A DNA stretch of 64,000 nucleotides from Spirosoma telluris. Lineage in GTDB: Bacteria > Bacteroidota > Bacteroidia > Cytophagales > Spirosomataceae. The notes under the pieces were generated by a model. It ran no database searches. It had not been told where the DNA came from and worked only from the letters and a program-made list of their open reading frames with translations. Positions 24,077-62,960 of the stretch are shown in pieces (the first letter of the stretch is position 1; each line of letters opens with the position of its first letter). The translations under genes were made by a program, and so were the position numbers. Location of the stretch: contig QLII01000001.1 of NCBI GenBank assembly GCA_003259005.1, positions 1,488,001-1,552,000 of the forward strand, given 5' to 3'.

Positions 24077-24083
24077 CACTACT

Positions 24084-39776: not shown

Positions 39777-42700
39777 CTACTGTTTCGGCGTTGAAACGGC
39801 TACATCAGGAACTGTAATTTTATCCAGTTGAGCCTGGCGGCATTGGTTGTTAAACCGACTAATATCATCCTGAATCAGCCTATCCATGTCCGTTTTCAAC
39901 GGTTGCCAAGTGGCGTTCAATTCGGATAGACGCTCTTGCTGTCCGGCCGTAACGGAGGGGATATTCACATCTAGTTCACCTTTCAGAAAGATGTAGTCAG
40001 CACTCAGTTTATTCTCAAAATTGATGACATCGTCATTCGATTTTGACTTTGGCTGGATGACTTTCTCCTCCCACAACTTGATCTTTTTAGCCACAGCCCG
40101 ACCTGAGTCGGCCACGGCTTTAAGATTAGGTTTGTCATCAATCAGGTCGACCAGATCATTGATTTGCTTCTGGGCTTTTCGCATCCGGTTGACGCCCTGA
40201 TGAATTTCCTTTACGCCTTCCTCAATGGCCATCAGCGTTTTTTGCTGTTGCTCATAATCGGCCGCCATTGCATTAATTCGAGGGTCTGCCAGAATGCTGA
40301 AGGTCACCGTTTTATCCTGTTTTCCCAGTTTTACTTTTGCCTGATAATTACCCGGAGGCAGCTTGCGACCACTATAGTTTCCCTCGATGAACACGTTTTC
40401 AATGGCGGGTAGGGTTTCAGCCCGCATGTCCCACACAAACCGATTCAGGCCTGGTCGCACCGTCAGCGTTGGCTCTGGCGATGGTCCCCCCGGAAACTGG
40501 ACAAACTTTTTGTCTTTCTTACTGCTGAACTTTCGAAGCACAACCCCCTGATTGGACTGAATTTCCATTGTCAATGTGGCACTAGTGTCAACTTTGGCGG
40601 GTAGTTGATAATACATGACTACGCCAGTAGATGGGTTTGTACCAGCAAATCCATTGCGGCCGGGGCTGCTGCCTGCGTCTTCATCGTCTTCCTCTTCAAG
40701 TACTTTATCCAATGTACTAGCACCCGATACGCGGTAGGCATCTTCGGGTTTATACACCAACAAGCTGTCTTTCGAGACTTTATCATTGAACTGACGAATA
40801 GGCCCCAGATCGTCCAGAATCCAGAAAGATCGTCCGGCGGTGGCTGCAATCAGGTCGCCTTGGTGAACTTTCAAATCAGTGATCGGGCTGACGGGCAAAT
40901 TGAGTTGCCAGGGTCGCCAGGTTAGCCCGTCGTTGTAGGAGATATAAAGCCCGGTTTCCGTTCCGGCATATAACAATCCTTTACGCTCTGGGTCCTCCCG
41001 AACCGTTCGGGTGAAGGCTCCGTATGGAATTCCTGTCACGATCTTCGTCCAGGTTTTGCCATAATCAGTTGTTTTATAAATAGCGGGGCAAAGTCGTTGA
41101 CTTTGTAGCGAGTCGTGGCAATGTAGGCGGTGGCTTTGTCGTGAGGAGATACCTCAATGCAATTGATCAGGGTTTCTTCCAGACCAGCGGGTGTAACGTT
41201 GGTCCAGGTTTTGCCGCCATCGCGAGTGAGTTGAACCAGACCGTCGTCGCTGCCTGTCCATAAGGTGCCTTTTTCAATAGGTGATTCGAGGACATAGGTA
41301 ATCGTCGCGTAGTTCTCACCACCCGCGCCTTCATTGGTATAAGGCGCACCACCCCAGCCTAGTTTGGTAGAATCATGACGGGTTAGATCGGGCGAAACGG
41401 TCGTCCAGCTTTTTCCCAGATCGGTCGTTTTAAATAGCTTATTTCCGGCATGATAAAACGCATTGGGTTCGTGCTTCGACCAGATGATCGGTGCGTTCCA
41501 GTTAAACCGGTATTTCATCGTTTTGGCCTGCAACGCCTGATACTGAATCGGCGACACCATGATGGGTTTGCCTTCGTGCGTTTGCTGATCGAGGACTTCG
41601 ATGGTGCCCTGATAACTACCGCCCATTACGTAACGCGGATCATCGGGATTGAAAGCCAGAAATGCACTTTCTCCACCCGCAGAGGAGACCCAATCTTTAT
41701 CGCTAATGCCACTGCCTGCGGTGGTTCGGCTAACAATCATTACCGATGTGTTATCCTGCTGACCACCATACACATAGTAGGGAAAGCGGTTATCGGCATT
41801 GACACGGTAAAACTGCGCGGTGGGTTGGTTATTCTCCGACGACCATGATTTTCCGCCATTAAAAGATATGGCTCCCCCACCATCGTTTTGTAAGAATAGA
41901 TTTTTGTTGTTTGGGGTTGATCCACAGGTTGTGGTGATCGCCATGCGAACCCGAAATTGTGCTGAATGTCTTGCCCCCATCAATGGATTTCAGAACGGAC
42001 GTATTGAGAACATATACCGTGTTTTCGTCGATCGGATCAGCAAAGATTTCGATGTAATACCAGGCTCGCTGGACTGTCCGATGGTCTTTACTGACCCGAT
42101 TCCAGCTTTTGCCTGCATCTTCGGATAGAAAAACCCCCTTTTTCGGCTTTGGTATCCGATTCGATAACGGCATAAACACGGCTTGGATTTGCCTTCGAAA
42201 CAGAAATACCCATTTTACCCAATTCTTTTGGCAGCCCTTTTTCAAGTTTTGTCCAGGTTTCGCCTGCGTCGGTCGATTTGTACAGACCGCTGCCTTTTCC
42301 ACCGCTCTGCACCTGCCAGGGTAACCGCCGGTAATCCCACATGGATGCATACAGGATACGTGGGTTCGTCATGTCCATACTCAGGTCATTGCAGCCCGTG
42401 TTTTCGTCAATAAACAACACTTTTTTCCAGGATTTGCCGCCATCTGTAGTTTTATAAATACCCCGTTCGGCGGAGGCACCGTGCAGGGCACCCTGAGCAG
42501 CAACAAACGCCACATCCGGGTTTTGCGGATGCACCCGTACCGCAGCAATATGGCGAGTGAGGTCAAGACCAAGGTGTTGCCATGTTTTTCCGGCATCGGT
42601 GGATTTATAAACGCCGTCCCCATAAGAGGTCATGACCCCACGCGGAGCATGTTCGCCCATACCAGCATACACCACAGCGGGGTCTGACTCACAAATGCCA

Positions 42701-43018
42701 ATCGCCCCACGGAAGAGGTTTTTAGCTGTCCATCGGATACGTTTTTCCACGTGATACCTGCGTCTTCGGTTTTCCAGATACCCCCGCCGACTGTACCCAT
42801 ATAGTAGAGTTGTGGGTCGCTGGTAACCCCGCCCCTGCCACTGATCTGCCTCCCCGAAATGGGCCAATGTTGCGCCATTTGACGGGTTTGAAATAGGGGT
42901 CAAGATTGACACCCCCTTCAACTATTGTCGTTGAGACAGCCTTTGCCGGTTTGGGCTTTTGGGCCAGAAGTGGGGAGGCAAGTACTACAGAAAACAGGAA
43001 AAATAGAATCTTTTGCAT
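39777..43018 (-). CDS. Sortilin/VPS10-like Asp-box propeller protein A (five frame breaks)
   Basis: About 1082 residues after repair, exported (signal [10 protein letters not shown]). It opens with the cluster motif [12 protein letters not shown]. Repeated Asp-boxes follow ([32 protein letters not shown]) forming beta-propellers of the sortilin N-terminal type. [11 protein letters not shown] and GGQQDNTS are shared with the paralogues. After the propellers comes [10 protein letters not shown], a beta domain ([11 protein letters not shown]) and a C-terminal helical hairpin. Breaks lie at 42827-42830, 42704-42707, 42134-42138 (two bases), 41910-41912 (two bases) and 41084-41087. It follows the uptake ATPase by 44 bases on the same strand. 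Such genes are often auto-named glycosyl hydrolase, which nothing here supports. Confidence 0.85.
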
Positions 43019-43062
43019 GACAACAGATTTACTGAGCTACCGTCTACCAAGATAGGGCGAAA

Positions 43063-43842
43063 TCAGCAAATCATAACCCGCCTGCCGGTTTCAGGATGCG
43101 TTATAAAGTAAGGCCTCAGCTTAAATACCGCTTCGATAGCCGTTTCTGTAAGTACCTCATTTGCACTTCCCATTCCATAAATGCGTCCCTTGTCAATTAG
43201 GATTACCTTTTGGGCATACTGGAGGGCTAGATTGATGTCATGGACGATAACGAAAACGATTATATTCTGCGATGCTAGTTCGCGAACCAGGCTCAATATC
43301 TGATGCTGGTAGTGAATATCCAGTGCCGAAATAGGCTCATCGAGGAAAAGATACTTGACGGATCGATCTTCCGCCTGGCGATATAGCTGAGCAAGCACGC
43401 GAGCCAAATGCACTTTTTGTTTTTCTCCGCCCGAAAGTGAAGCAAACGCGCGCGTTTTAAACGAAAACATACCTACCGTTTCCAGGCAATCGTCAGCAAT
43501 CTGCTTGTCCAGACTGGTCGGATTAAGATCGAAATAGGGGTAACGACCCATCATGACCACCTCCGCTACGCTCAAATCAAATGGTAACGATAGCAACTGG
43601 GAAAGTACGGCTTTTTGCCTGGCTAAAGTACTGAGCGGGATCGACCTGAGGAGTTGATCACCATACCAAACCTGGCCCTGCCGGGGCGTTTCGGTACCGG
43701 TCAATAACTTAAGCAGTGTGCTTTTCCCTGCTCCATTGGGGCCTAAGACCATCGTAAACTCACCGGGCAGCAGGGTCAGTGACACATTGTCAATCAGCAG
43801 ATTATCCCCAATTTGAAACGACAGATTTTCCGCTTTAAGCAT
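43063..43842 (-). CDS. Heme/siderophore ABC transporter ATPase (HmuV/FecE type)
   Basis: 259 residues. Walker A GPNGAGKST, Q-loop, signature LSGGEKQKV, Walker B YLFLDEPISALD and switch histidine VIVHDIN are all present, with the spacing of the metal-chelate/heme importers. It powers uptake through the FecCD permease encoded just before it, and its start overlaps that gene's end by 8 bases. A clear Shine-Dalgarno-like AGGAGGG precedes the ATG at 43842, which selects this start over 43872. Confidence 0.92.
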   Translation of the reverse strand: MLKAENLSFQIGDNLLIDNVSLTLLPGEFTMVLGPNGAGKSTLLKLLTGTETPRQGQVWYGDQLLRSIPLSTLARQKAVLSQLLSLPFDLSVAEVVMMGRYPYFDLNPTSLDKQIADDCLETVGMFSFKTRAFASLSGGEKQKVHLARVLAQLYRQAEDRSVKYLFLDEPISALDIHYQHQILSLVRELASQNIIVFVIVHDINLALQYAQKVILIDKGRIYGMGSANEVLTETAIEAVFKLRPYFITHPETGRRVMIC

Positions 43843-44902
43843 AGAACCCTCCTTTCTGAAACGACCGTGCATTCCGAATTAGCAGCCAGATAAATACGGG
43901 TGCGCCAACGAATGCGGTGATGACACCAATCGGGAATTCGGCAGGGGCAACCAGTCTTCGGGCGAGGGTGTCGGCCAGGGTGAGCAAGGAACCGCCCAGC
44001 AGGGCCGAAGCAATAACCAGAAATCGGTTGTCCGATGTTTTCAGTAATCGTAACAAGTGTGGCACCACCAGTCCAACGAACGAAATCACCCCCACCATCG
44101 CGGTACCGATGGCCACCAGCAGGGTGTTCAATAACAGTACCTGAATCTTGAGCCGGTCGATGTTGTAGCCCAAATGGCGCACCTCGTCTTCTCCCAAAAT
44201 TAAGATATTCAAGGCTTTGGTGAACCGTAGGGAAAGTAAAACACCAATTGACGTAACTGGAAAAACGATAGCGAACTGAGTCCAGTCAGCCCCAGAAAAA
44301 GTGCCTAGATTCCAAAACGTGATGGATCGCGCCTGTGGGTCACGAGCAATATAAGACAGAAAGCCGGTGCCCCCTGTCGCCAGCGCGTTGATGGCAATGC
44401 CCGCCAGGATCATCGTAGCCACATTCACCTTGCCACTTACCGATGCGATGCGATATACGAGTAAGGTGGCAAAAAAAGCAAAGGTGAAGGCTACGCAGGG
44501 TAATAGAAACAATCCCAGCGCGTCGGTGAAGGCCCAGTTGATGTTCTTGCCAAGTACAAATACCAGAGCCGCCCCCAATGCCGCGCCGGAACTGGTACCA
44601 ACCAGTCCCGGCTCAACAATAGGATTTCTAAATAGCGCCTGCATCAGTACGCCCGATACCGATAATCCAGCCCCAACCGTGGCGCAAAGCAAAACTCTGG
44701 GAAGCCGGATCTGCAAAAAAAGCCCCTGCGAAATCGGATCAATTGTGGTATTCGACAGACCCATGCCATTCAGTAGAATGTGATTAATATCATCGAACGT
44801 CAGGTCGACGGCACCAATTCGAAGCGCGGCCACGATTGACAGCAGCTGCAAAATGGCTAAAATACCATACCAGCTTCCTGGCGTTAGGGAAGATAATTTC
44901 AT
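43835..44902 (-). CDS. FecCD-family permease (HmuU type)
   Basis: 355 residues with nine to ten membrane helices. Family signatures are LPRVLLCATVGAGLSVSGVLMQALFRNPIVEPGLVG (in part), LGEDEVRHLGYN and GVISFVGLVVPHLLR. It forms the inner-membrane channel for heme or ferric siderophore. Its ATG shares one base with the stop of the binding-protein gene, a translationally coupled arrangement. The gene is intact. Confidence 0.93.
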   Translation of the reverse strand: MKLSSLTPGSWYGILAILQLLSIVAALRIGAVDLTFDDINHILLNGMGLSNTTIDPISQGLFLQIRLPRVLLCATVGAGLSVSGVLMQALFRNPIVEPGLVGTSSGAALGAALVFVLGKNINWAFTDALGLFLLPCVAFTFAFFATLLVYRIASVSGKVNVATMILAGIAINALATGGTGFLSYIARDPQARSITFWNLGTFSGADWTQFAIVFPVTSIGVLLSLRFTKALNILILGEDEVRHLGYNIDRLKIQVLLLNTLLVAIGTAMVGVISFVGLVVPHLLRLLKTSDNRFLVIASALLGGSLLTLADTLARRLVAPAEFPIGVITAFVGAPVFIWLLIRNARSFQKGGFYA

Positions 44903-45770
44903 TACTGGTGAATTAACTTCATGAGCATCAGGACATTTTCGCCCGTGCGGGGCCCCAGATAAATCAGATCGTGTTCTTCAATGCGGTAAATCTTTTTGTT
45001 TTTTCCGGCTGGTGTCAGGGCGATACCAGGCAGCGTGGCTAGCTTCTCGGCATTACCCAGCCGATCGTAGCCAAAATCAGTCACCAGAATAATATCGGGT
45101 TGGGCTTTGCTGATAATCTCCGGGCTGAGCGGTTTCATACCTTTCAGCGTGTCCATTACGTTTTTGCCCCGGCCATCTCCAGCATATATGACGCTGTGCC
45201 CGCTTTTCCAATAACCAGGTAGTTGTTAATAACCCGGCCGAAATGGATGATCGCAACGTTAGGTGTGGTTTTGTACTGCTTCACATCCTCAGCTGCTTTC
45301 GCCAGATCACTATCGAGCTTGGTTTTCAGGCTATCGGCTTGTTTCTGGGCACTAAATTGGGCGGCCAATGTATCGAACAGGGCTTTGACTTCGGGAATGG
45401 TGTGCGCATCGGGAAATACCTTCATGGGAACACCCACTTTTTCCAATTGCTGCATGACCGCTTCCGGGGCAACGTTCCCATCGTGGTAAACGACTGTTGG
45501 TTTAAGCGCGATAATCCCTTCCGCATTGAGCATACGGTGGTAACCCACTTTGGTCAGCTTCTGCGCGGCTGGTGGGTACGTACTTGACAGGTCGACACCA
45601 ACCAACTGATCCCCGGCACCGAGGGCGTAAATTAGTTCAGTCAACTGCTTGGCTACACAAACGATTCGCTGTTTGCCAGTGGCCTGCGTTTGATCCTTTT
45701 GAGTTGATGTACAGGCCGAGATAGCCAGAGTAACTAGTACTGATAAAAGGAATGTATTATAGAGTTTCAT
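44902..45770 (-). CDS. Heme-type ABC substrate-binding lipoprotein (HmuT-like; one frame break)
   Basis: About 289 residues after repair. Lipobox ISACT region near residue 20 anchors it. RIVCVAKQLTELIYALGAGDQLVGVD and VGYHRMLNAEGIIALKPTVV, shown in part, follow the fold of HmuT-type heme binders, where a tyrosine in this region ligates heme. The second lobe carries PDIILVTDFGYDRLG and LTPAGKNKKIYRI. The break is in the T run at 45161-45165 (plus strand); one more base gives AGAKNVMDTLKGM. Heme is the best guess, and a siderophore or corrinoid is possible. Confidence 0.85.
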
Positions 45771-45797
45771 TAAATTGTAGATGGTTAAATGTTGTCC

Positions 45798-45829: not shown

Positions 45830-45833
45830 AGTT

Positions 45834-48176
45834 TCAAAATATATACTTCAGCATTGCTCCCGAATAGAAGGTAATCTTCGGGGATGGATTATAGGCCAAC
45901 GGACGGTTGTTTGCTGGATTGGCAAGGTTAAGGAATACCAGCGATGAATACGTACTGCTCAGCATGTTGTCCGAACCGACGTACACATCCAGGTTGAAGT
46001 GATTCCCTAGTCCACTACGGTAACCCAATTTCCCATTTACGAGCGTGTAGGCATCAGCAAAATGGTTGTTAGGCAGGTTAATGGGCATTTTATCGACGTA
46101 TATCATGGTTCCGTTCAGGTAAAAACCAGACCGAACTTCAATATCTACGCCTGCATTCAACAGGTTTGGCGCAATACCCGACTCTTTCTTGCCCGTGTAA
46201 TCGACCGTTTTAGCATCGCTATTATTGTCGCTTTTATAGTCCTTGTAATAAAAGTCGCTGTAGGTGTATGACACGAACGGACGGATCAGGGAAACCGCTC
46301 CCGCACCTGGGCGATAGGCATATTGAATAGCCAGTTCCAGTCCATTATGCTGCACTTTACCGGCGTTGGTCGTTATCGAATAGGCAGGTACGGTCGAGGT
46401 GGCTGCGAAGCCCTGCGGAACGAGTTTGTCTGCTACGGCCATGGTAAAGTAAGCAATTTCGTAGGTGAGCGATTTATTCAGAAAGCTCCCTTTGCTACCG
46501 ATCTCATAGTTAGTTCCTAACTCCGGCCGAAGATCGTAGTTCACAACACCCGTCTGTGCCACAATGACCTGATTCGTGCCCGGTGCCGAATACCCCTTGC
46601 TCACACTGGCATAAAGCGATACGTTATTGGTAAGCTGATAAGCTAGTGCGGCTCGGGGAGCTAGAATAGGCTTGAACCGTTTATACCCCGACACGTTGAC
46701 ATACAGTGGCGTTGTGGTAGCCGCCCGCATATCGGTAATGCCATACTCAACATAATTGAGTCCTGCCCCCGCCGACAAAGTTAGCTTTGGCGCTATTTGC
46801 AAAGCGGCCTGCGCGAACAAACTGTACTGCATGGCCTGTACTTCAAGATCAGAGCGGAGCGCGCCAAGAATATTGTTTGATAAGCCATACCCTTTGGCGA
46901 AGTTGAAGTTCTTTAAAAACTCGCCCCCCACACTAATCGTTGGACGTAACGGGCTGGCATCGTTGCTATACGTGAATACGCTACGACCGCCAAATTTGAA
47001 CTTGTTTGACTTATTGACCCCAGCCGCAAAGGGTTGATCAATGACCTGTCCACCCACAAATAGGGTTGTTTTGTTCGAAAACCGGTCTGTGAACTGGTAG
47101 TTGTGGCTTAGTCCGACCCGGGCACTCTCGGTTTTGATACTGGCATTGTTGGCAACGTACACAGGATCGGAGCTCTCCGGTTGTTCCAGAATAGCAACGC
47201 TATCTATTTCTCCGGCCAGTAAGTCATACGAATTGGTATACCCAACAAAGACCGACATCGACCGTTTGGCACTCATATAGGTGTCGCTGGTTATACTCAA
47301 AAAATCTTTTTGCGAACCGCCATGTGTCCGGAATCCGTCGTACTTCTGATGACCATAGTTAATATTCAGGCTGGTATTATCAGTGCCGATTTTTAGGGAT
47401 GTGTTCGTTCGGAATAGGCCATACGATCCGCCTAATACCTGCTGACTGATGCTCGTTTTACCGATCGGTGCCCGTTCGGTATAGAAATTAACAACGCCCC
47501 CAATGGCATTCCCATACGCGCTCGATCCGGGCCCTTTTAATACCTCAACGCGGCTCAGGGTTGTAAAGTCAATGTCATCCAGGAAGGTGGTTCCGTCGCC
47601 ATCGGTCAGGGGAATATCGTTCAGATAGGCCTTATAGCCAACCCCGTTGAAGTTGGTCTGGTTACCATAGCCACGAATAACGATCCGGTTTCCGGCAGCA
47701 ATTGTCCGCATCTCTACCTTCACACCGGGAATCAGGTTCACGTAGTTTTGGAGGTGAATCCCATTGGTTCGTTGAATATCCCGACTGGTAATCAACCCTA
47801 CTGCTCCGGCCGTACGCTGTATCGTTTGCGGAGTCGAGTAGCCTGCCACGATCACTTCATTCAGATCCGTGTTAGACGGGTCGAGTTCAATCGTCAGGCT
47901 TCGCGTAGTTGCTTTGACGCCTACTGTGAGCGTTTGATAACCAATGGCGGAGAATTGAAGTTGGTCACCTTCACTGGCAGATAGACTAAACTGCCCTTTG
48001 TCATCGGCGGTCGTACCCCGGTTTGTACCGCCAATCAGTACGGTTGCACCAATGATAGGCTGAGAATTAGTTGGGTCAACAATGCGACCGGTTATGGCTT
48101 GCTGGGCATACAGGCGGATACTCAGACAACTAAGCATGAGTACCGCAAGGATATATCGACTATAAATTGATTTCAT
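45834..48176 (-). CDS. TonB-dependent receptor of the uptake operon
   Basis: 780 residues, intact. A signal peptide is followed by a carboxypeptidase-like domain (ITGRIVDPTNSQPIIGATVL), a plug (GVKVEMRTIAAGNRIVIRG, RVEVLKGPGSSAYGNAIGG) and a barrel of classical siderophore/heme-receptor form. It ends in an aromatic residue (YIF), as outer-membrane barrels do. The binding lipoprotein, permease and ATPase follow on the same strand, so it brings heme or a ferric chelate through the outer membrane. The ligand is not proven. Confidence 0.9.
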   Translation of the reverse strand: MKSIYSRYILAVLMLSCLSIRLYAQQAITGRIVDPTNSQPIIGATVLIGGTNRGTTADDKGQFSLSASEGDQLQFSAIGYQTLTVGVKATTRSLTIELDPSNTDLNEVIVAGYSTPQTIQRTAGAVGLITSRDIQRTNGIHLQNYVNLIPGVKVEMRTIAAGNRIVIRGYGNQTNFNGVGYKAYLNDIPLTDGDGTTFLDDIDFTTLSRVEVLKGPGSSAYGNAIGGVVNFYTERAPIGKTSISQQVLGGSYGLFRTNTSLKIGTDNTSLNINYGHQKYDGFRTHGGSQKDFLSITSDTYMSAKRSMSVFVGYTNSYDLLAGEIDSVAILEQPESSDPVYVANNASIKTESARVGLSHNYQFTDRFSNKTTLFVGGQVIDQPFAAGVNKSNKFKFGGRSVFTYSNDASPLRPTISVGGEFLKNFNFAKGYGLSNNILGALRSDLEVQAMQYSLFAQAALQIAPKLTLSAGAGLNYVEYGITDMRAATTTPLYVNVSGYKRFKPILAPRAALAYQLTNNVSLYASVSKGYSAPGTNQVIVAQTGVVNYDLRPELGTNYEIGSKGSFLNKSLTYEIAYFTMAVADKLVPQGFAATSTVPAYSITTNAGKVQHNGLELAIQYAYRPGAGAVSLIRPFVSYTYSDFYYKDYKSDNNSDAKTVDYTGKKESGIAPNLLNAGVDIEVRSGFYLNGTMIYVDKMPINLPNNHFADAYTLVNGKLGYRSGLGNHFNLDVYVGSDNMLSSTYSSLVFLNLANPANNRPLAYNPSPKITFYSGAMLKYIF

Positions 48177-48320
48177 AAAGCAGGTTGTTGATTGGTAAAA
48201 GTAGGTTCTGCCGGACAGGATATACCGATCCGGAAATTTGCAGACGCGCGGCTACGCTTTTATCTGTTCAGATAAAGTTACTGACGTCTAAAGAGGCTAA
48301 AACCTCATCGCTAAACAAAG

Positions 48321-48869
48321 CTACAAGTTGGGTGGAGGAGCGAGTACCTCCAGGAAGGGAAGCCTGATGCGGGAGGGAGAATACGCAAAAAAAGACGTCG
48401 ATACGGGCAGGATAAACCCGGCTACCGGGGCGATTACCCCCGAACGGGGCAGTACAAACGGACTAAACCACTTGATTCGTTTCGTGTGGGAACGTGAGCT
48501 TACGGGCTGGTTGTCAGGATGTGCCGTGTCCTCATAAAGCCAGGCGGCTTCCTGTTTGAGTTTCGTTTCGGCTTTATCGCGAAAACCATAGATATACAAT
48601 GTGTCGGAACGAAACTCGCGGTGGAGCACATCAACCAGTTCGCCCTGCCACTCGAATTCACCTTCGTTAGCCAGATAATCGTTCTGTCGGGAAAGGTCTG
48701 TCTGGGGAATTGTAATTAAAATAAGCTCATCGGCCGCAAAGTAGGACTGGTGCGCAAACGCCCATTTGGCCATCCATTCGCAGGCCTGATAATAGCCATA
48801 GATGCTTGCCAGCGCCAGCGAAGCTGTCACCAGAAGGATGCGAACGATATGGATGCGCCCAGCGAGCAT
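48321..48869 (-). CDS. Membrane-anchored hypothetical protein
   Basis: 182 residues. An N-terminal hydrophobic segment (IVRILLVTASLALASIYGYY) and a second near residues 140-160 flank a soluble region of charged residues. No family recognised. It sits between propeller gene C (68 bases) and the TonB receptor (144 bases) on the same strand, so it may belong to the uptake operon. Its last residues are proline-rich. Confidence 0.6.
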   Translation of the reverse strand: MLAGRIHIVRILLVTASLALASIYGYYQACEWMAKWAFAHQSYFAADELILITIPQTDLSRQNDYLANEGEFEWQGELVDVLHREFRSDTLYIYGFRDKAETKLKQEAAWLYEDTAHPDNQPVSSRSHTKRIKWFSPFVLPRSGVIAPVAGFILPVSTSFFAYSPSRIRLPFLEVLAPPPNL

Positions 48870-51900: not shown

Positions 51901-52127
51901 TCCGTTTTCCAGACGCCCCCGCCGGTTGTTCCCATGTAAAACACCAGCCGTTCTGTGGGGTGGCCCGCCACACAAACCGAACGCCCACCCCGAAACGGTC
52001 CGATGTTTCGCCATAGCATGGCTTTCATTACGGAAGCCTGTGAAGAAGCCGGGGTTTGAGCAAAGGCAAAGAAACTGGTCAGGAAGATTAATAGACCAAG
52101 TAAGGCGTAGGATAGATGTCTTAACAT
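48938..52127 (-). CDS. Sortilin/VPS10-like Asp-box propeller protein C (five frame breaks)
   Basis: About 1064 residues after repair. The signal peptide ([13 protein letters not shown]) is followed by [12 protein letters not shown]. Asp-boxes include [32 protein letters not shown] and [19 protein letters not shown] and GAQQDNTT are the shared motifs. [11 protein letters not shown] leads into a beta domain ([12 protein letters not shown]) and coiled helices. Bases are missing near 51094-51102 (two sites, giving DGGKTYQKVDPP), 50982-50986, 50867-50868 and 49610-49613. The start at 52127 begins the signal peptide directly. It lies 55 bases after gene D on the same strand. Confidence 0.85.
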
Positions 52128-52177: not shown

Positions 52178-52182
52178 TAAAA

Positions 52183-55100
52183 TCACATGCCAATACGCTG
52201 CACCGTTTTCGTTTTCAGAAGTACGTCCAGCTCCGCCATTTGCTTGTCCAGATCGGCTGATAATTCTTCGTATACTTTGTAAGAACCGTCGGTTGGTTTC
52301 GCATCACCACTTTCCACACTACGCCAGAGGGCAGCGAGTCGGTTGTTTAGTTTAATTGGAAAATTCAACGGGTCCTGACCGCTCTGGTTCCGAATCTGGT
52401 ACAGATTTTCTTCGATGATGCTTAGTTGTTCTTTCAGCTTTTTATTCGCTGGACTATCGGGTTGCCTGGATAGCTTTTCTTTCAGCGTCCGAATCTGAAT
52501 CACCGCATCGTTGGCTTTGCTGGTCTGATCCCGAAGCTTCATCGTCAGTTTAAACTGTTCCTGCACATCGGCGGTGGTAACACCTTTCAACCGTGGGTCA
52601 AGTCTGATCTCGAACGGCTGGGTGAACGATTGGTCGCCCACCGTTAGTCGAACCTGATACTGACCGGGTAAGGCGAGTGGACCCGACGTTGGACGAGCGC
52701 CCCACATAATCATGCCTTTGAAGTAGGTAGCCCCTGGATAGCGAAGATCCCATTCATAACGGTTCAAGCCAGCAGCCGTTGTGGGTAGCTTAACTTTAGG
52801 CTTACCTGGCTCATCATCGTCGTCATCGTCACCCGCTTTAGGATTCGTGGGTTTATTGCCGGTAAATGATTGAATAACCGTTCCGGCCGCATCCAGGATT
52901 TCAACTTTTACGCTATCCGCCTGCTTCGCCAGATAGTACTGAAACACAGCGGGCTGCACCCGTCGAACGGCATAGTAGGGTTTGAAAAGATGCACCGGTT
53001 TACTGACCAGATCAGCCGTAAATTCCCGAACAGGCGAAATGTCATCCAGCACGTAAATCGAACGACCATGCGTTCCGATTACAACATCTTTTTCAGTAAC
53101 CTGAATGTCGGCAATTTGCGTATCAGGCAGTTTTAGTTGCAGGGGTTGCCAGGATTCCCCATCCGTAAACGAGACCCAAATGCCGTGTTCCATGCCAGCA
53201 TAGAGCAGGCCGGGACGCGTAATATCCTCCCGTATCGAATGGGCGTAATCATCGGCTCGCAGACCACTAATGATCTTTTTCCAGGTTTTGCCGTAATCGT
53301 TTGTTTTGTAGAGGTAGGGCGTCCGATCATCCATCTGGTAGCGTTTGGCCGCTACGTAAGCCGTTCCGGGTTTATGCCGCGATGCTTCGATAATACTTAC
53401 TCGGGTGTGTTTGGGCAAGTCTGGTGGGGTTATGTTCTGCCAGGTTTTTCCGTGATCACGGGTGATGTGAATCAGTCCATCGTCGGAACCCGCCCAGATC
53501 GTGTTGACATCGTGGTAGGAAGGAGCCAGCGCAAACACGGTCGCGTAAATTTCGGGACCGTTCATATCCATCGTGATCACTCCCCCGCTTTTCCCAAGTG
53601 TTGTGGTATCCGCTAAGGTGAGATCAGGGCTGATTTTTTCCCAGCTCTGTCCTTCATTGGTCGACACCCAAACGTGCTGGGAACAAACGTAGAGCCGGTT
53701 TGGATCTTTGGGCGAAAACACGATTGGATAGGTCCACTGCCAGCGTTCGGGTAGTGCACTGGCGGGCTCACCGGAGAAAAAACGCGGATACACCTGCACA
53801 TCGCGGGTTTGACCCGTAGAACGGTCATAACGTGTCAGCAATGCCCCTTGGCTACCGGCATAGAAGATATCCGGATTTTGGGGGTCCTGCGCTATGTAGC
53901 CACTTTCGCCACCACCCACTTCGTATCCCCATTCTGATTTTTTGATGCTGTTGGTTTTCACCAATTGATTGGACCATCCCTCGCTCGCTACGGCTACGGT
54001 GGTGTTGTCCTGCTGGGCACCTGCAATATGATAGGGGAAATCGGTAGTGGTGGTAATGTGGTAGAGTTGGGCTGTCGGGAAGTTTTCGTCAGTCCAGGTT
54101 TTGCCCCCGTTGACCGATACCGCGGCACCGCCATCGTTCGATGTAATCATGCGAGTGGAATCGGCCGGATCGATCCACAGATCATGGTTGTCGCCGTGAG
54201 GAACGGTGATTGCTTTGTTAAACTTGACACCCCCATCCGTCGATTTGTAAAAGTTAACGTTCAGGCAGTAAACGCCGTTTTTGTCGAGTGGATCGGCATA
54301 AATGCGGGAGTAATAAAAGGCCCGCTGGCGCAGTTTTCGTTCGTCGTTAACGTGCTTCCAGGTCATGCCAGCATCGTCAGAGCGGTAAACGCCACCGTCT
54401 TCTGCTTCCACAATGGCCCAGACCCGGTTCGGGTCAACCGGCGAAACCGTTACGCCAATCTTCCCGACAGTGCCTTTGGGCATGCCGGGTTTGCGGGTTA
54501 ACTCAGTCCAGGTATCGCCCCCATCGGTGGACTTGAACAGGCCTGATGCACCGCCCCCACCCCACATTTTCCAGGGTTTTCGGTAAACTTCCCAGATCGA
54601 AGCATAGAGGACATTGGGGTTCGTGCGGTCAATGATTACATCTACGCCACCCGCTTTATCCCCTTTGTACAGAACTTTTTTCCAGGTTTTGCCGCCGTCG
54701 GTCGTTCGGAAAATGCCGCGTTCTTCGTTTGGGCCGTAGGGATGACCCAGCGCGGCTACGTACACGATATCGGGTTTGTTGGGTGGATACGGACGCGGGC
54801 AATGGCCTGGGTATTTTTCAGACCTATGTTTATCCAGGTTTTTCCAGCATTCGTTGTTTTATAGACACCATCGCCCTGCATGATTCCCCCGCAACTGGGT
54901 TTCGCCGGTACCGATGTAGACAATATCTGGGTTGGTTTCCGCTACGGCCACGGCCCCCACCGATGAACTGTTTAACTGGCCATCTGTAACGGGCGACCAG
55001 CTCTGTCCACCATCTGTGGTTTTCCATAAGCCGCCACCTACAGCGCCAAAGTAATACTCTTGTTTGCGACTTGGAGAGCCAGCCGATCCTAACGAACGCC

Positions 55101-55268
55101 CCCGCGGGTCGGCCCAATATTGCGCCAGGCCATTCCTTTAAACACTGGATTAATCGCCGTATCGGCTGGTGGCGTTAGTTGAGCATTTAGCGGATTGCTG
55201 ACCAGGGTGCAGCATAGGGCAGTAAAGAGTACAGTCTGGAATTGATGAAGGAGTCGTGTAAAGAGCAT
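52183..55268 (-). CDS. Sortilin/VPS10-like Asp-box propeller protein D (three frame breaks)
   Basis: About 1029 residues after repair. Signal peptide ([14 protein letters not shown]), then [17 protein letters not shown]. Asp-boxes such as [24 protein letters not shown] and TNDYGKTW build the propellers. Shared motifs [11 protein letters not shown] and GAQQDNTT are present. [11 protein letters not shown], a beta domain ([13 protein letters not shown]) and C-terminal helices complete the family plan. An acidic stretch (DDDDDD) lies before that motif, possibly calcium-binding. Breaks are at 55099-55103, 54886-54890 (two bases) and 54772-54774. The first gene on the left arm of the divergent locus. 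Confidence 0.86.
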
Positions 55269-55574
55269 ACAAGTAGAGTGGCAATGTCTGTCAGTACCTA
55301 AGTCAATGGAATTATACAAAGTAAATCATAAGAAATTGATTCTGCATTTTCTAATTTGGCAGCTGTTTTCAATTGCAAAAAGCTTAGTTAGCTAACATTT
55401 TGTTTCTTTTCTACTTTTGTGACCCGTATAAAGCCCTATCTCCATCTATATGTAGTAAGAATAGTTTTTAAATAGCATTTAATGTAATTATGGCTAGTTT
55501 CCACTAGCTGATAGCCGTCCAATCGATTGACAATAAATTTTGAACTGCCTGGTAAAAAAACTAACCTATTCTTC
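55269..55574. promoter_or_regulatory. Divergent control region of the propeller locus
   Basis: 306 AT-rich bases between the starts of leftward gene D and rightward gene E. Rightward, TACTTTTG at 55412-55419 fits the -7 box and would give a leader of about 150 bases. No clear palindromic operator is visible, and no equally good leftward box. Confidence 0.5.
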
Positions 55575-58500
55575 ATGACAAACCAATCCGTAACCCGTTC
55601 AATCGGCGTATTCGTCATCATTACCTTTCTGAGCACCTGTGCTGGATTTGCTCAACGGAAAACGAAACCAATTGTAAAGACCGCTACAACCCAGACTTCA
55701 GATAGTCTTTTCAACGCCTTACGCTGGCGCAACATCGGCCCTTTTCGTGCGGGGCGTGCCCTGGGCGTGGCCGGTCATCCGAGTCAGCCACTGACCTATT
55801 ATTTCGGAGCCACCGGCGGGGGCGTCTGGAAAACCACTGATGGGGGCGGTAACTGGATAATGGTGTCGGATTCTACCTTTAAATCCAGTTCAGTTGGTGC
55901 CATTGGTGTTGCACCCTCCGATCCCAATATTGTGTACGTTGGCATGGGGGAATCTGATATTCGAAGCAATATTGCCAATGGCGATGGCGTCTACAAATCA
56001 ACTGATGCGGGTAAAACCTGGAAACACGTTGGCCTGAAGATGGCCGACGCCATCGGTAATGTCGAAGTCCATCCCCACAATCCCGACATTGCCTATGTAG
56101 CGGCACTGGGAAATCCGTTCGCGCCCAATAAAGAACGGGGGTATTCCGTACGACCGATGGCGGCAAGACCTGGAAGGCGATTCTGACCAAAAATGATAGC
56201 ACTGGATCAGCCACTGTCAAGATAGACCCGAACAATCCGTCTATTATCTACGCATCGATGTGGCAGGCCTACCGCAACAGCTATAAGATGAGCAGTGGCG
56301 GCCCTGGTAGTGGCCTGTTCAAATCCACGGATGGCGGTGATACCTGGGTAAACCTGAGCAACAAGCCAGGTATGCCGAAGGGAATACTGGGAAAAATCGG
56401 TATTGTTGTCTCGCCCGCCAACTCGAATCGACTGTACGCAATGGTCGAAAATGCGAAGGGTGGTCTATACCGATCCGACGATGCCGGTGATTCGTGGCAA
56501 CTGATCAACGAAGACAAAAACCTGTGGCAACGCCCCTGGTACTATATGATGATGGGCGCTGACCCGCAGGATGAAAATGGATTGATTGTCCTGAATGTCA
56601 ATGCAATGAAATCGTACGATGGCGGCAAAACATTCAGTGTACTCGGCGTTCATCACGGCGATACGCACGATATCTGGTGGAACCCAAAAAATTCGCAGAA
56701 CTTTATCATTGCCGACGATGGCGGTGCCGAAGTAACCTACAATGGGGAGCTACCTTCTCAGACATCGACATGCCCACCTCCCAGTTTTACCACGTAGCTG
56801 TCGACAACGACTTTCCCTATAATCTGTACGGTGCTCAGCAAGATAACACGTCCATTCGGATTGCCAGCCGCACAACCGGCTATTCGATTGGCAAATCCGA
56901 TTGGTATCCTGTGTCGGGCGGAGAATCGGGATACATTACGCCAGAACCCAATAACCCGGACGTAACATATGGTGGCAGTTATGATGGCTTGATCACCCGT
57001 TACGATAAAAAGACGGATCAAAACCAGGTCATTAATGTGTATCCAGAATACTTTATGGGTTCCCCTTCTTCGGCCCGAAAATACCGGTTTCAGTGGACGT
57101 ATCCCATCGTTTTCTCACCACACGATAACAAAACGCTATACATCACCTCGCAATATCTGCACCGCAGTACCGACTATGGCCATTCGTGGGAGGACATCAG
57201 CCCCGACCTGACCCGAAACGACCCGAAAACGCAGGGCGATACAGGCGGCCCTATTACGAAAGACAACACCGGTGCCGAAACTTTTCCAACCATTTTCACT
57301 TTTGCGGAATCGCCTGTAGAGAAGAACGTATTCTGGGCAGGGTCCGACGATGGTCTGATGCACATCAGTCGCGACGGCTCAAAAACCTGGCAGAACATTA
57401 CCCCACCAGCGTCGATGCTCCCCGAACTGGCAATCATGAGTATCGTACATCCCTCTGATCATACACCTGGAAAAGCCTATCTGGCTGCCAAACGTTATAT
57501 GTCGGGCGACCGGAAACCGTATCTATTCAAAACAACTGATTACGGCAAAACCTGGACAAGCATCACGACGGGTATTCCGTCAGACGAACATTGCCATGTT
57601 ATTCGCGAAGATCCCAACAAACCGGGATTACTCTATGCGGGTACAGAACGTGGTGTTTACGTATCCTTCAACGATGGCGGTTCATGGGAGAAGCTGAGTT
57701 TGAACCTGCCCGTTACGCCTGTTCGTGATTTGCAGATTCATAAGCGCGAAAAGGATCTGGTTATTGCCACCCACGGACTGGCGTTCTGGATCATGGACGA
57801 CATTACGCCCCTCCACGAGCTGATGGACCTGAAACAAGCCGGTAAACTGGTAACTGCTGCCTATTTGTTCAAACCTCGCCACGCGTATCGGATGGACGGA
57901 GGTGCCGGAAGCACCCGGCGGGGTACACCTTCAGGTGAAGGCGAAAATGCACCAAATGGCGTGATTACTCGCTACTACCTGAAAAGCAAGCCCAAAAAAG
58001 AGCTACGTCTGGTGTACATGACAACCAGCAATGATACCATCATCACCTACTCCAATACTAAGGATAAAAAAGGACAGCCTTTTAAGGTACTGAACGAGTT
58101 TTATCAGGATGAAACAGCTCCAAAATCAGGCATGGCGACGGCTAATCCGGGCATGAACGTCTTTGTCTGGGACATGCGCTATCCAGATGCAACCGCCGTT
58201 GAGGGAACCAACGTCATGTGGTCGGGTCGCGGAACGGGGGCTAAAGTCGTACCGGGCAATTACAAAGTTCGACTTCTGCTTGGTGATTCGTTGATTGCCG
58301 AGCAACCGATTGAAATTCGGAAAGATCCACGGCTAACGACCACCATTGCTGAGTTACAGGAGCAGTTTGACTTACTGCAAAAAATAAACGGCAAGCTATC
58401 GGAGGCCCACAAGTCAATTAACCAGCTTCGTCAGATTCGGAACCAGATTAATACCTATACAAATGGGGTCAAAGAACCGAAAGTCGCCGAGAAATTTAAG

Positions 58501-58806
58501 AATGCGGCCAAACCCATTTTGGAGGAATTAGACAAAATTGAGTCCACCCTGATGCAGCCAAAGTCGAAAGCGGGTCAGGATGCGCTGGCGTATCCCATTC
58601 GCCTGAACGATAAGATGGCTGGGGTGGGTTCGGCCGTTTCATCTGCCGATGCGAAACCGACCAAATCGTCTCAGGCGGCATATGACGATCTGGCTAAGCA
58701 AATTGATACGGCGGTTAGTAAACTGAAAGAGGTTATCAATACGCAGGTACCAACGTTCAATAAAGTCGTAACAGAACAGCAGGTTCCGGCCATTATCATC
58801 AATTAA
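55575..58806 (+). CDS. Sortilin/VPS10-like Asp-box propeller protein E (two frame breaks)
   Basis: About 1077 residues after repair. Signal peptide (TFLSTCAGFAQ), then [17 protein letters not shown]. Asp-boxes include [32 protein letters not shown] and [19 protein letters not shown] and GAQQDNTS match the paralogues. NVFVWDMRYPDA, a beta domain (PGNYKVRLLLGDS) and C-terminal helices follow. Breaks at 56137-56141 (one G, gives [12 protein letters not shown]) and 56744-56747 (one G, gives YNGGATFSDIDMP). The ATG at 55575 begins the signal peptide. A strong hairpin separates it from the PepSY gene. Confidence 0.87.
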
Positions 58807-58807
58807 G

Positions 58808-58871
58808 TTTTTAACAGGGTTTGGGTGGTGTCGGGTTCTCAAACCCGACACCACCCAAACCCTGTTAAAAA
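58808..58871 (+). terminator. 30-bp perfect hairpin between gene E and the PepSY gene
   Basis: Arms 58808-58837 and 58842-58871 pair perfectly around CTCA, with A/T runs at both ends. It has terminator form, yet the next gene starts 22 bases later on the same strand, so it may be a partial terminator. Confidence 0.7.
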
Positions 58872-58893
58872 TTCCCTATCTCTACCAACACGT

Positions 58894-59951
58894 ATGATCT
58901 CCGATAAAACCGTTTACAGTCTGCACCGAATTTCAGGATTGGTTGGGGGCCTGTTTATTCTGATTATCACGATTACCGGCTCGATTCTGGTCGTTGATCG
59001 GCAAGTCGATAATTTACTAAATCCGAGTCAAACCCATATTAAGCCCGTTGGGCAGCGACAATCGTATGACAGGTTGCTTTCAGCCGTACACACTCAATAC
59101 CCGGCGGCTCAGATACGTAGTCTTCAATTGTCGGAAAGCCATACTGATGAAGCGGTTCGGGTTGATTTGATGGATAAGGGTGCCTGGAAATGGATTGAGA
59201 TGAACCCATATACCGGGGCTATCCTTAGCGCACGAAATGCCGATGCTACGCTTGTTCGACGAGCGCGGGAGCTGCATGAAAACCTACTACTGGAACCCGT
59301 AGGCGGGTTTATTATGAGCCTGGCGGGCATCTGTTTACTTGCATCTGTCCTAACGGGCACTTGGTACTACCGAAAGTCGCTGCTGAGTGTATTTAAAATT
59401 GGGGTTCGCTGGAATAAATCAGCCCGTATCGTGTACGCCGATATCCATAAATGGCTGGGGGTTATCGCCTTGTTGTTTATGCTGATGATGAGCGCGACGG
59501 GAATTTTCTTCCACTGGGAGCAAATCGAACGGAAATTTGGCGATGGACGAAAACCTGAACAAATGCAGATAGCACCAATGGCATTCGAACGCATTCCGGT
59601 CGATTCGTCGATTGCAATTGCCAAAGCATCCATCGCTGATTTTCAACCGGAGTTAATCGACTTCCCGAAACCGGGCGATAGTACGCTGGTTATTCGGGGA
59701 ATATGCCGCACAGCATTCGGATGCTTGGTAAGTATAATGTGGCAGCTACTTTGGATGCCCGAAACGGCCAGTATATCAGTGGGTTCGATGCCCGCACGGC
59801 TGGCCTGGAGTACATCGCCGAACATATTTTCGAGGAACTTCACTTTGGCCGTTATGGTGGCTGGATTTCTCAGGTCATTTATATCCTGTTTGCCCTGACA
59901 ACTGCCGTTGTAACAGTCACAGGGCTTCTTATCTGGTTCGTTAAGCGTTAA
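58894..59951 (+). CDS. PepSY-domain membrane protein (one frame break)
   Basis: About 352 residues after repair. Four membrane segments: one near residues 15-35, one near 130-155, one near 185-210, and the last at the end (FALTTAVVTVTGLLIWF). PepSY domains lie between them. Membrane histidines (SLHRISG, RELHENL, IHKWLG) match PepSY-TM proteins, which in other bacteria act near iron-siderophore receptors and may reduce iron with bound heme. The break is in the G run at 59696-59699; one more G gives VIRGNMPHSIRMLG. It precedes gene F by 15 bases, so the two are likely cotranscribed. Confidence 0.85.
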
Positions 59952-59966
59952 ACCTCAACTTTTCAT

Positions 59967-62960
59967 ATGGGTCTATTTTACGCCTTGAAACGGCGGCTTC
60001 TGCTGCTGCCGTTTATCTTCTCAACCGTTTTTGCACAGGCTCAAACCATCCCTCCTGCTTTCTTCAACGCCATGAAATGGCGGATGATTGGGCCACATCG
60101 GGGTGGTCGCACGGTGGGTGCAGCAGGCGTACCGCAACAACCAAACGTCTTTTACATCGGTGTCAACAATGGAGGTGTCTGGAAAACCACCGACTATGGG
60201 CGCACCTGGTTTCCCATTTTCGACGACCAGTCCACCGGCTCCATTGGCGATGTGGCTGTGGCACCGTCAAATCCCAATGTTATTTACGTAGCCAGTGGCG
60301 AAGGGCTTCACCGCCCGGATTTGTCGGTGGGCAACGGGATGTACAAATCGACCAATGCGGGAAAAACCTGGACCCACCTGGGTTTAAGTGATGGCCAGCA
60401 AATTGGGGGCATATCTATAGATCCCACCAATGAAAACCGGGTTTTTGCCGCTGTACTGGGGCATCCCTACGGCCCAAATGCCGAACGGGGTGTCTATCGT
60501 ACCACCGATGGGGGTAAAACCTGGGACAAAGTATTGTATAAAGACCAGGATACTGGAGCCATTCAGGTAACCCTCGACCCGAAAAACCCGGCCATTATTT
60601 ACGCTGACCTATGGACAGCGCAGGAAGGCCCCTGGGAAAACGGTGCCTGGCAGGGAAAAGAAAGCGGCCTCTATAAATCAACGGATGGCGGCACAACCTG
60701 GCAAAAACTTACAAAAGGGCTACCTACGGTGGAGCAGGGACTGGGTCGAATCGGCTTTTGCATAGCGCCAAGCAATTCCAATCGGCTCTACGCTACCGTC
60801 GATGCTCCCGAACTCGGTGGCGTATATCGTTCAGACGATGCAGGTGAAACCTGGACACGCTTTAATAAAGATCCGCGATTATGGGGTCGTGGCAGCGATT
60901 TCGCCGAAGTAAAAGCGCATCCTACCAATCCTGATATCCTTTTCATTGCCGATGTGTCTGCCTGGAAATCGGAAGATGGCGGCAAAACATGGAATGATTT
61001 TCGGGGTGCACCGGGTGGTGATGACTATCACCGGCTCTGGATCAATCCGAACGACCCCAATACGATGCTGCTGGCTGGCGACCAAGGGGGCATCATTACC
61101 GTAAATGGTGGACAAACCTTTAGCTCCTGGTACAACCAGGCTACCGCGCAGTTTTACCACGTCAGCACCGACAACAGTTTCCCGTATAACGTGCTCGGTG
61201 GCCAGCAGGAAAGTGGTTCGGTGGGCATTGCCAGTCGCGGCAACGATGGCCAGGTGACCTTTCGAGAATGGCATCCGGTGGGTGTGGAAGAATATGGGTA
61301 CGTAGCCGCCGATCCACTCGACCCCAACATTATTTACGGAGGAAAGGTTACCAAATTCGACAAACGAACCGGTCAGGTGCAGAACATCGCTCCCGAAGCT
61401 GTTCGTAGTGGCAAGTACCGATTTGTGCGGACGGCCCCGGTTTTGTTTTCTCCCATAGCCCCAAAAACGCTCTATTTTGCGGGTAACGTACTCTTCAAAA
61501 CGCAAAACGGCGGGAACTCCTGGCAGGTAATCAGTCCAGACCTCACCCGCGAAACTTATCCTGACATTCCGGAAAGTGTGGGCGTATATCGCACCGATGC
61601 CATGAAAACCATGCCCCGGCGCGGGGTGATTTATACCATTGCCCCTTCGTTCAAGGACGTAAATACAATTTGGATCGGTACCGACGACGGCTTTATTCAG
61701 GTCACGCGTGATGGGGGTAAAAACTGGAAGAATGTTACTCCTCATGGGGTAGGCTCCTGGAGTAAAGTATCGATCATGGACGCTGGCCACTTTGATGTCA
61801 ACACCGCCTATGCCGCCGTGAACCGCATCCGGTGTGATGACATGCATCCGCATATCTATCGCACACACGACGGGGGAAAAACCTGGAAGGAAATTGTAAC
61901 CGGTTTACCCAACGATCCAATCAATACCGTTCGCGAAGACCCAGTCCGAAAAGGCTTATTGTTTGCCGGTTCAGAAACAGCCGTCTACGTCTCGTTCGAT
62001 GACGGTGATCACTGGCAATCACTCCGGCTGAACATGCCCGCAACCTCAATTCGTGACCTGGTCATTAAAGACAATGATCTGGTGATTGGCACCCACGGTC
62101 GGTCGTTCTGGATTCTGGACGACATTAGCCCTTTGCGCCAGTTAACGCCCGAGCTAATAAAAGCAGCGAGCATTCTGTATAAACCACAACGAGCGTACCG
62201 CGTTCGGTGGAACATGAACACTGATACGCCCTTACCACAGGAAGAACCCGCTGGGCAGAATCCACCCGACGGGGCCATCATCAATTACTATCTCGCTACC
62301 GATGCGAACGCGGTTGTTACGCTGGATATTCTGGATGCAGGTGGAAAAGTCATTCGCCAATACCGTAGTGATGAAAAGCCCTACAATGTTCCTGATGTGA
62401 ACTTACCGGCCTATTGGATTCGGCCACAGCAACTATTATCGGGCAAAGCGGGTGCTCACCGCTTCCTCTGGGATATGCACTATACATCGCTACCTATTGC
62501 GCCTTCTTACCCCATTGCTGCCACCTATCATCAAACGGCTCCCGATCCTACATCACCCTGGGTACTTCCTGGAACCTATACGATTAAACTGACTGTCGAT
62601 GGGAAAGTATCTAGCCAATCCCTTACCATCACGATGGACCCGCGTGTGAAGGTGAGCCCATTAGTATTGAAACAGCAACATGACCTGTCAATAGCTGCTT
62701 ACGAAGGCAGGAAACAGGTAATTGGCCTATTAGGCGAAATGCAGACTCTTCAAGCACGGGCTACTTCTGACACGCAGAAAAAGAGTTTCGATGCACTAAA
62801 AACCAGCTTAACCAGTTTGAATCGGGCATTCAATTCAATTTTTGGCGTGCTTCAGGATACCGACATGCCGCCAACCACGCAAGCGATAGCGGCTGGCAAT
62901 GAAGCGCAGGCTAACTTGAAAAAAGTGTTGGCACAGTGGGCTCTCCTGAAAAATAACTAG
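59967..62960 (+). CDS. Sortilin/VPS10-like Asp-box propeller protein F (intact)
   Basis: 997 residues, the only paralogue without a frame break. Signal peptide (FIFSTVFAQAQ), then WRMIGPHRGGRTVGAAG. About ten Asp-boxes are visible ([64 protein letters not shown]). It is the most divergent member: HGD is replaced by GGDDYHRLWINP and the GxQQD motif by GGQQESGS. HRFLWDMHYTS and a beta domain (LPGTYTIKLTVDGK) precede the C-terminal helices. It follows the PepSY gene closely. Confidence 0.9.
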   Translation: MGLFYALKRRLLLLPFIFSTVFAQAQTIPPAFFNAMKWRMIGPHRGGRTVGAAGVPQQPNVFYIGVNNGGVWKTTDYGRTWFPIFDDQSTGSIGDVAVAPSNPNVIYVASGEGLHRPDLSVGNGMYKSTNAGKTWTHLGLSDGQQIGGISIDPTNENRVFAAVLGHPYGPNAERGVYRTTDGGKTWDKVLYKDQDTGAIQVTLDPKNPAIIYADLWTAQEGPWENGAWQGKESGLYKSTDGGTTWQKLTKGLPTVEQGLGRIGFCIAPSNSNRLYATVDAPELGGVYRSDDAGETWTRFNKDPRLWGRGSDFAEVKAHPTNPDILFIADVSAWKSEDGGKTWNDFRGAPGGDDYHRLWINPNDPNTMLLAGDQGGIITVNGGQTFSSWYNQATAQFYHVSTDNSFPYNVLGGQQESGSVGIASRGNDGQVTFREWHPVGVEEYGYVAADPLDPNIIYGGKVTKFDKRTGQVQNIAPEAVRSGKYRFVRTAPVLFSPIAPKTLYFAGNVLFKTQNGGNSWQVISPDLTRETYPDIPESVGVYRTDAMKTMPRRGVIYTIAPSFKDVNTIWIGTDDGFIQVTRDGGKNWKNVTPHGVGSWSKVSIMDAGHFDVNTAYAAVNRIRCDDMHPHIYRTHDGGKTWKEIVTGLPNDPINTVREDPVRKGLLFAGSETAVYVSFDDGDHWQSLRLNMPATSIRDLVIKDNDLVIGTHGRSFWILDDISPLRQLTPELIKAASILYKPQRAYRVRWNMNTDTPLPQEEPAGQNPPDGAIINYYLATDANAVVTLDILDAGGKVIRQYRSDEKPYNVPDVNLPAYWIRPQQLLSGKAGAHRFLWDMHYTSLPIAPSYPIAATYHQTAPDPTSPWVLPGTYTIKLTVDGKVSSQSLTITMDPRVKVSPLVLKQQHDLSIAAYEGRKQVIGLLGEMQTLQARATSDTQKKSFDALKTSLTSLNRAFNSIFGVLQDTDMPPTTQAIAAGNEAQANLKKVLAQWALLKNN

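Follow-up and report, generated by a model that had tools for sequence, protein, structure and literature searches.

A locus resembling Hmu-type heme importers in Spirosoma telluris, with five paralogous propeller proteins and a PepSY membrane protein

Heme import systems of the Hmu/Shu type encode a TonB receptor, an HmuT-like carrier, a FecCD permease and an HmuV-type ATPase in one operon. In vitamin B12 uptake, BtuG has a propeller fold and BtuFCD is a FecCD-type ABC importer. BtuB-BtuG is described as a system for uptake of this vitamin (PMC10404256, PMC6143338). The XusABC xenosiderophore system of Bacteroides encodes a TonB transporter, a beta-propeller and a PepSY inner-membrane protein together: XusC is described as a membrane reductase, while XusB is a single seven-bladed DUF4374 surface lipoprotein (PMC13142918). 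Both hmu and Xus loci are reported to be iron-regulated in PMC10434189, in which the term 'BNR' does not occur.

The window analysed here is a stretch of 64,000 nucleotides from the 9.09-Mb genome of S. telluris (G000:C1:1488001-1552000; G000 denotes this genome, other G numbers the genomes compared and L numbers the loci compared). A locus of 23 kb and eleven genes was identified in it (39777-62960), consisting of two divergent gene groups. The leftward group has the order D, C, small hypothetical gene, TonB receptor, binding protein, FecCD permease, ATPase and A, and the rightward group the order E, PepSY_TM and F, where A, C, D, E and F are propellers (Table 1). Re-inspection of the locus showed the gene order, strands and short gaps to be as the earlier note had given them. 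A common regulatory motif was not made out when the D/E intergenic region was aligned with that of two relatives. The genome holds seventeen matches to the F protein, sixteen of them inside the 23-kb cluster. The one outside it (39.7 bits, at 6.76 Mb) is a 413-aa weak propeller relative with 28% identity to F, encoded by ORF 8374-9615 of L086 (G000:C1:6755000-6772000).

Table 1. Features of the locus, with positions in the window and the evidence for each.
Feature	Position	Strand	Evidence
Propeller A, frame-broken	39777..43018	-	tblastn of intact G018a_09: six pieces in differing frames, 43018 to 39780
HmuV-type ABC ATPase	43063..43872	-	NCBIfam PRK13548 heme ATPase, 278.8 bits (cut-off 261)
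FecCD-type permease	43835..44902	-	PF01032, 295.6 bits
HmuT-like binding protein, frame break near 45160	44902..45770	-	PF01497 in first piece; two tblastn pieces
TonB-dependent receptor; earlier start possible near 48236	45834..48176	-	PF00593, PF07715, PF13715
Small hypothetical protein, 182 aa, upstream of receptor	48321..48869	-	No Pfam or NCBIfam match
Propeller C, frame-broken	48938..52127	-	Three tblastn pieces of G006_09
Propeller D, broken near N-terminus	52183..55268	-	860-aa ORF and upstream coding; tblastn 92% to G030_06; one internal TAA; PF15902, 92.8 bits
Divergent D/E intergenic stretch, about 300 bases, presumably both promoters	55269..55574	.	Sequence
Propeller E, frame-broken	55575..58806	+	Three tblastn pieces of G030_07, 87-98%; PF15902, 43.5 bits in large piece
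PepSY_TM inner-membrane protein, frame break near 59700	58894..59951	+	PF03929, 125.4 bits; two tblastn pieces
Propeller F, 997 aa, intact	59967..62960	+	Signal-peptide-like leader, two propellers (about 36-725), beta-rich region, helical tail

The locus shares with Hmu/Shu systems the four import components in one operon. It differs in that neither HmuY nor HmuS was found among the nine locus proteins or pieces scanned, and in its propellers, small hypothetical protein and PepSY protein. With XusABC it has in common the combination of receptor, propeller and PepSY, and in seven relatives a second receptor, E and PepSY stand in a row; unlike that system, it has up to five tandem GH74-like propellers without a common lipobox and an HmuTUV-type ABC importer. 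DUF4374 was not matched in Pfam scans of window F, D, the E piece or the A, C and E orthologues. Judged by its sequences, the locus is not a Xus system, because its propellers are of another family and no lipid anchor was seen. BtuB-BtuG resembles it in pairing a propeller-type partner with the TonB receptor and a FecCD-type ABC importer, but BtuG is a surface lipoprotein, whereas this locus is without a B12 riboswitch and its carrier is heme-type.

The motifs that the earlier note had read as common to the five propellers are real. Window F was aligned with five proteins of relative G010 (F, E, D, C and A), and the six rows have the invariant columns W38-R39, I41-G42-P43, R45-G46-G47-R48, G411, Q413-Q414, W358, P361 and W835-D836; identity to window F is 37-42% for the E, D, C and A paralogues of a relative. 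Models of PF15902 (Sortilin-Vps10) and of Asp-box repeats match window F, window D and the intact A, C and E proteins of G010, and PF15902 also matches the window E piece. A and C were scored through their intact G010 orthologues (113.2 and 115 bits for PF15902), and a window propeller reached 118.1 bits against a cut-off of 33. Sortilin/Vps10 proteins, which have a single ten-bladed Vps10 propeller, thus share with this family scores over the cut-off for PF15902 and Asp-box repeats, but are a much poorer structural match than GH74. A shallow first model of F (six rows, pLDDT 70.5) was superseded by a deeper-alignment model. The F model gave a TM of about 0.43 (rmsd about 8) with GH74 tandem propellers versus about 0.15 (rmsd 20-29) with sortilin entries, and a sortilin fold for F was rejected because of this poor match. 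The earlier description as sortilin-like is therefore borne out in the Pfam name but not in the predicted fold, which is far closer to that of GH74 tandem propellers: F is predicted to be a GH74-like tandem double propeller.

This predicted fold is what F has in common with GH74 xyloglucanases. It differs from GH74 proteins in its low identity to them (16-19%), in an extra beta-rich region and helical C-terminus, and in the loss of one aspartate. The position of the latter was set as the site at which chains 2cn2 and 2cn3 differ (D versus A), which we take to be that of a catalytic residue of GH74. Window F has N67 there; the position is N, V, T or A in 66/66 rows of the genus alignment, and D in 4/58 rows of the propeller alignment A2. 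As the aspartate is missing, identity as a GH74 enzyme was not accepted. Family members are annotated as glycosyl hydrolase or sialidase, and the former name was found on a plasmid homologue; that it is unearned, as had been suspected, agrees with the absent aspartate. Several other polar residues are invariant: R48, D372, Y407, Q414, R485 and D718 are kept in all 58 A2 rows and all 66 genus rows, E442 in 58/58 and 63/66, and D353 in 56/58 and 66/66. F also exceeds the cut-off of the Ycf48 model PF14870 (39.7 bits, cut-off 27); with propeller profiles, Ycf48/HCF136 chains were matched weakly and GH74 chains more strongly.

A lipobox-like pattern was found by sequence test in only four of the 65 intact paralogues and is not common to their orthologues. 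No type IX sorting domain was reported in Pfam and NCBIfam scans of the window proteins or in Pfam scans of the A, C and E orthologues. For these two reasons a periplasmic site is the simpler prediction for the propellers, and the earlier idea that they capture an extracellular source and hand it over to the receptor is unsupported.

In this assembly the reading frame is interrupted in six of the eleven genes, namely those of four propellers (A, C, D and E), of the binding protein and of PepSY. Five propeller genes of about 1000-1080 codons had been described; the five paralogues are present, but only F has an uninterrupted frame. Full-length propellers of genus relatives are open frames of about 1000-1135 aa, with one exception that is cut by a contig end. 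Twelve break intervals were delimited. Three are too wide to judge, and eight of the nine narrow ones have a run of at least four equal bases within 12 bases, a count made without a chance control. Owing to these runs the breaks are treated as probable assembly indels; rpoB is intact in the same assembly, so real gene decay may also be their source.

The ATPase of the locus passes a curated heme cut-off (Table 1). An intact orthologue of the carrier, from G005, matches named heme or hemin carrier chains at 8.5e-33 (2r7a), 9e-33 (HmuT, 3md9), 3e-31 and 1e-30, whereas no vitamin B12 carrier scores better than 2e-12. This orthologue matches most strongly (7e-45) with 5gj3, a chain labelled only 'periplasmic binding protein' which we take to be a heme carrier, and its GYxRxLxxEG stretch, the Tyr of which is presumably a heme ligand, aligns with heme carriers. 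The nearest solved relative of the window receptor is PqqU, the pyrroloquinoline quinone transporter (9c4o, E 1e-30); with the heme-receptor model TIGR01785 it scores 113.5 bits (cut-off 316.85). A second receptor of 803-804 aa lies between D and E in seven of the 13 genomes with both importer and propellers. In G010 its top models are the heme receptors TIGR01785/TIGR01786 (217.5 bits, below their cut-offs) and its best solved relative is PhuR; G000 has no match to this heme-like receptor at E<=1e-120. The window permease, the sole match in G000 at E<=1e-20, is closest to BtuC models. The permease of an HmuS-linked heme operon also scores best with BtuC, and this score therefore does not discriminate the cargo. 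No cobalamin riboswitch was found at the gathering score in the window or in six related loci, and G000 has one elsewhere, at 5.9 Mb. B12 as first-choice cargo was rejected on the grounds that no riboswitch was found in these seven loci and that heme carriers are the closer homologues of the carrier. By kinship the importer is of the heme type and heme is its likely cargo, because carrier and ATPase are heme-type and the second receptor of relatives is heme-like. The heme-type uptake proposed by the earlier note is supported by these three components; the window receptor, nearest to PqqU, may take heme or another ligand.

The PepSY orthologue of G010 matches 7abw ('PepSY domain-containing protein', E 3e-9), which we take to be the ferrisiderophore reductase FoxB. 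Each of the 14 uptake-positive genomes has the small hypothetical gene ahead of the receptor. Small proteins (about 180-200 aa) that belong to no known family also stand before such a receptor in G529 (weak profile match; L169:10778-11377) and in Hydrotalea (by position only; L093:274-813).

Co-occurrence of these genes, a survey of which had been proposed, was followed through 36 genomes of the genus, G000 included, and the link was found to be conserved. Orthologues of the receptor (at least 78% identity) and of the permease (at least 89%) occur in the same 14 genomes. Full-length propellers occur in 15, and any match at E<=0.001 in 24, the other nine having weak matches only. Importer and full-length propellers are found together in 13 genomes, the importer alone in one, the propellers alone in two and neither in 20 (Fisher p 6e-7, uncorrected for kinship). 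The PepSY orthologue is present in exactly the 13 genomes with both. Among these, D and E occur in 13 each, A and F in 10 each and C in 8. Apart from A, C, F and the second receptor, which vary, the gene order changes little. Uptake operon and propellers are neighbours on a single contig in 12 of these genomes; in G031, a draft of 240 contigs, they are on separate ones. The genome with the importer alone, G005 (L167:9087-14859), has a complete uptake operon and the small hypothetical gene without full-length propellers or a PepSY orthologue; its close sister G004 has importer, propellers and PepSY. The two genomes with propellers alone, G009 and G021, hold an X-type propeller beside SusC/SusD, an E-type beside a heme-type receptor and solitary C- and S-type copies. 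In G021 (L072/L073, C27, about 12863-24149), SusC, SusD and the X-type propeller are followed by a PD40-repeat protein with an amidohydrolase domain.

An rpoB tree was built for 32 of the genomes, omitting four drafts (three without an rpoB match, one with a partial match). On this tree the importer changes state five times and the propellers seven times. Three well-supported independent pairs were identified, of which 2.7 on average went the expected way and none the opposite way, too few for significance. The tree groups G000 with G003, G008 and G023, from which the locus is absent; F is nearest to G004/G030, and nine locus genes are 76-98% identical between G000 and G030. Such placements would fit transfer of the whole locus between species or, the rpoB backbone being weakly resolved, its repeated loss.

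The genus also has an ordinary heme operon, at a separate locus (L172), consisting of receptor, HmuY, carrier, permease, ATPase and HmuS. Its permease and HmuS occur in the same 22 of the 36 genomes, not including G000, which has no HmuS match at E<=1e-20. HmuY (PF14064) and HmuS (PF05171) were identified in the G004 copy, and the permeases of the two loci are 45-48% identical. Six genomes have both this importer and the HmuS-linked operon, eight only the former, 16 only the latter and six neither (anti-occurrence p 0.09 for 36 genomes, 0.03 for 32 complete ones). Replacement of the HmuS-linked operon by the present locus is no more than suggestive, as independent pairs on the rpoB tree were not significant.

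Across the phylum, 174 of the 395 genomes sampled have a match to F at E<=1e-100, and relatives of it were found by record title in Acidobacteria, Verrucomicrobia, Gemmatimonadaceae and others. The neighbourhoods examined are those of the best 80 of 592 relatives, a sample that leans to F-type and in which only 42 of the 80 loci exceed 20 kb. Among these 80, a FecCD permease lies near one and PepSY near none, and at least two propellers were present in 15; a general heme role for the whole propeller family is on these counts not supported. The lone FecCD case, in Hydrotalea flava (L093), has the four import components (receptor, carrier, permease, ATPase) adjacent to propellers X, F and S. The receptor there is also nearest to PqqU, and the carrier has no NCBIfam match at E<=1e-20. 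In 88 loci the neighbours of F-type genes comprised other propellers (12), MacB-like permeases (7) and carboxypeptidase-regulatory, TonB-receptor-like proteins (6), the latter two classes being named by eye. The window-type receptor is rare: five of the 395 phylum genomes, two of which belong to the genus, have it at E<=1e-140, and it was found in nine of 150 family genomes, every one from the genus. A related heme receptor was present in 90 phylum genomes outside the genus, with a propeller within about 8 kb in three of them, twice directly behind the receptor; no enrichment is claimed, the chance expectation being one or two by rough estimate. The importer-propeller link is strong in one genus and sporadic elsewhere. 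Scattering of the paralogues without uptake genes, which the earlier note had said would make the link a coincidence, is thus largely what is seen outside the genus but not inside it, where the exceptions are solitary S-type and some A, C, F and X-type copies.

Two further arrangements were noted in the wider sample. Close to a urease cluster on Hymenobacter plasmids (L187 and L188, about 6377-13090), consecutive genes encode a heme-type receptor, an MFS transporter and an S-type propeller; the receptor belongs to the second-receptor family (611 bits), and the two plasmid stretches are 99.9% identical over 23 kb. On a contig of Flavobacterium sp. SUN052 (L087:3191-12940), C, D and F propellers adjoin and F is 84% identical to window F, against at most 75% in the remaining 79 of the best 80 of 592 loci. 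This case is either a recent transfer or a misassigned contig.

Tentatively, and clearly short of an even chance, we favour a variant Hmu-type heme importer whose double propellers would bind heme or a heme conjugate in the periplasm, replacing HmuY and HmuS. The TonB receptor would bring the heme or conjugate into the periplasm; the exported double propellers would hold or process it and then pass it to the HmuT-like carrier, from which the FecCD permease and HmuV-type ATPase would import it; PepSY would probably act alongside D/E as a membrane reductase. Heme as cargo, the periplasmic place of the propellers, binding rather than cutting and the reductase role are what we infer here. A wider version, that five GH74-fold double propellers and a PepSY reductase form a new envelope heme-handling class that replaces HmuY/HmuS and is mobile as one module, is doubtful. 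Several observations argue against a heme relay. The invariant residues are also present in members from other phyla, the loci of which are without such an importer, and this argues that the basic activity of the family would not be heme-specific. G005 has the importer but neither full-length propellers nor PepSY, and outside the genus propellers stand near only three of the 90 related heme receptors. The receptors of the window and of Hydrotalea are both closest to PqqU, and G000 is without the second receptor. Rather unlikely, if the most serious of the rivals, is that the propellers are envelope enzymes (e.g. hydrolases) that cut an imported heme conjugate, siderophore or protein fragment, the product of which the importer takes up: the predicted fold is that of GH74 enzymes, and polar residues invariant across paralogues and phyla would resemble an active site, but the GH74 aspartate position has been lost throughout the genus and is rarely kept in A2.

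Ycf48/HCF136 is an assembly factor for photosystem II, and the propellers could likewise act in the periplasm in the assembly or quality control of outer-membrane receptors or cytochromes, serving this receptor set. The score of F over the Ycf48 cut-off and the weak matches to Ycf48/HCF136 chains are consistent with this, as are the many copies that stand without other propellers or uptake genes and those beside SusC/SusD or other receptors; however, GH74 chains match more strongly, and in the genus the propellers are so closely co-inherited with PepSY and one rare importer that a function tied to the cargo is indicated, which makes an assembly role unlikely. To an equally small degree the cargo might be another cofactor or chelate (PQQ-like, corrinoid or ferric siderophore), with propellers that act like XusB or BtuG. 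The kinship of the window receptor to PqqU, of the permease to BtuC models and of PepSY to 7abw would fit such a cargo, as would the make-up of XusA-XusB-XusC from receptor, propeller and PepSY; against it stand the heme-type carrier and ATPase, the non-discriminating BtuC score and the lack of a B12 riboswitch in the loci scanned. Least probable is that propellers and importer hitch-hike by coincidence on an accessory genomic island with no functional link. The locus is possibly horizontally mobile and the link is weak outside the genus, but 13 of the 14 genomes with the importer retain D, E and PepSY, while importer and propellers change state several times on the rpoB tree, and the gene order is largely maintained.

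Among the matches listed for the open-licence literature, none was found on a function of this propeller family or on its tie to such uptake genes. We class the locus provisionally as a variant Hmu-type heme importer accompanied by accessory propellers of an unfamiliar family. That family is very common in the phylum and annotated as glycosyl hydrolase or sialidase; here several of its paralogues go together with a single identifiable importer and a single PepSY protein, and the locus offers a concrete, testable cargo class. The sister genomes G004 and G005, with and without propellers and both with the importer, provide a natural comparison.
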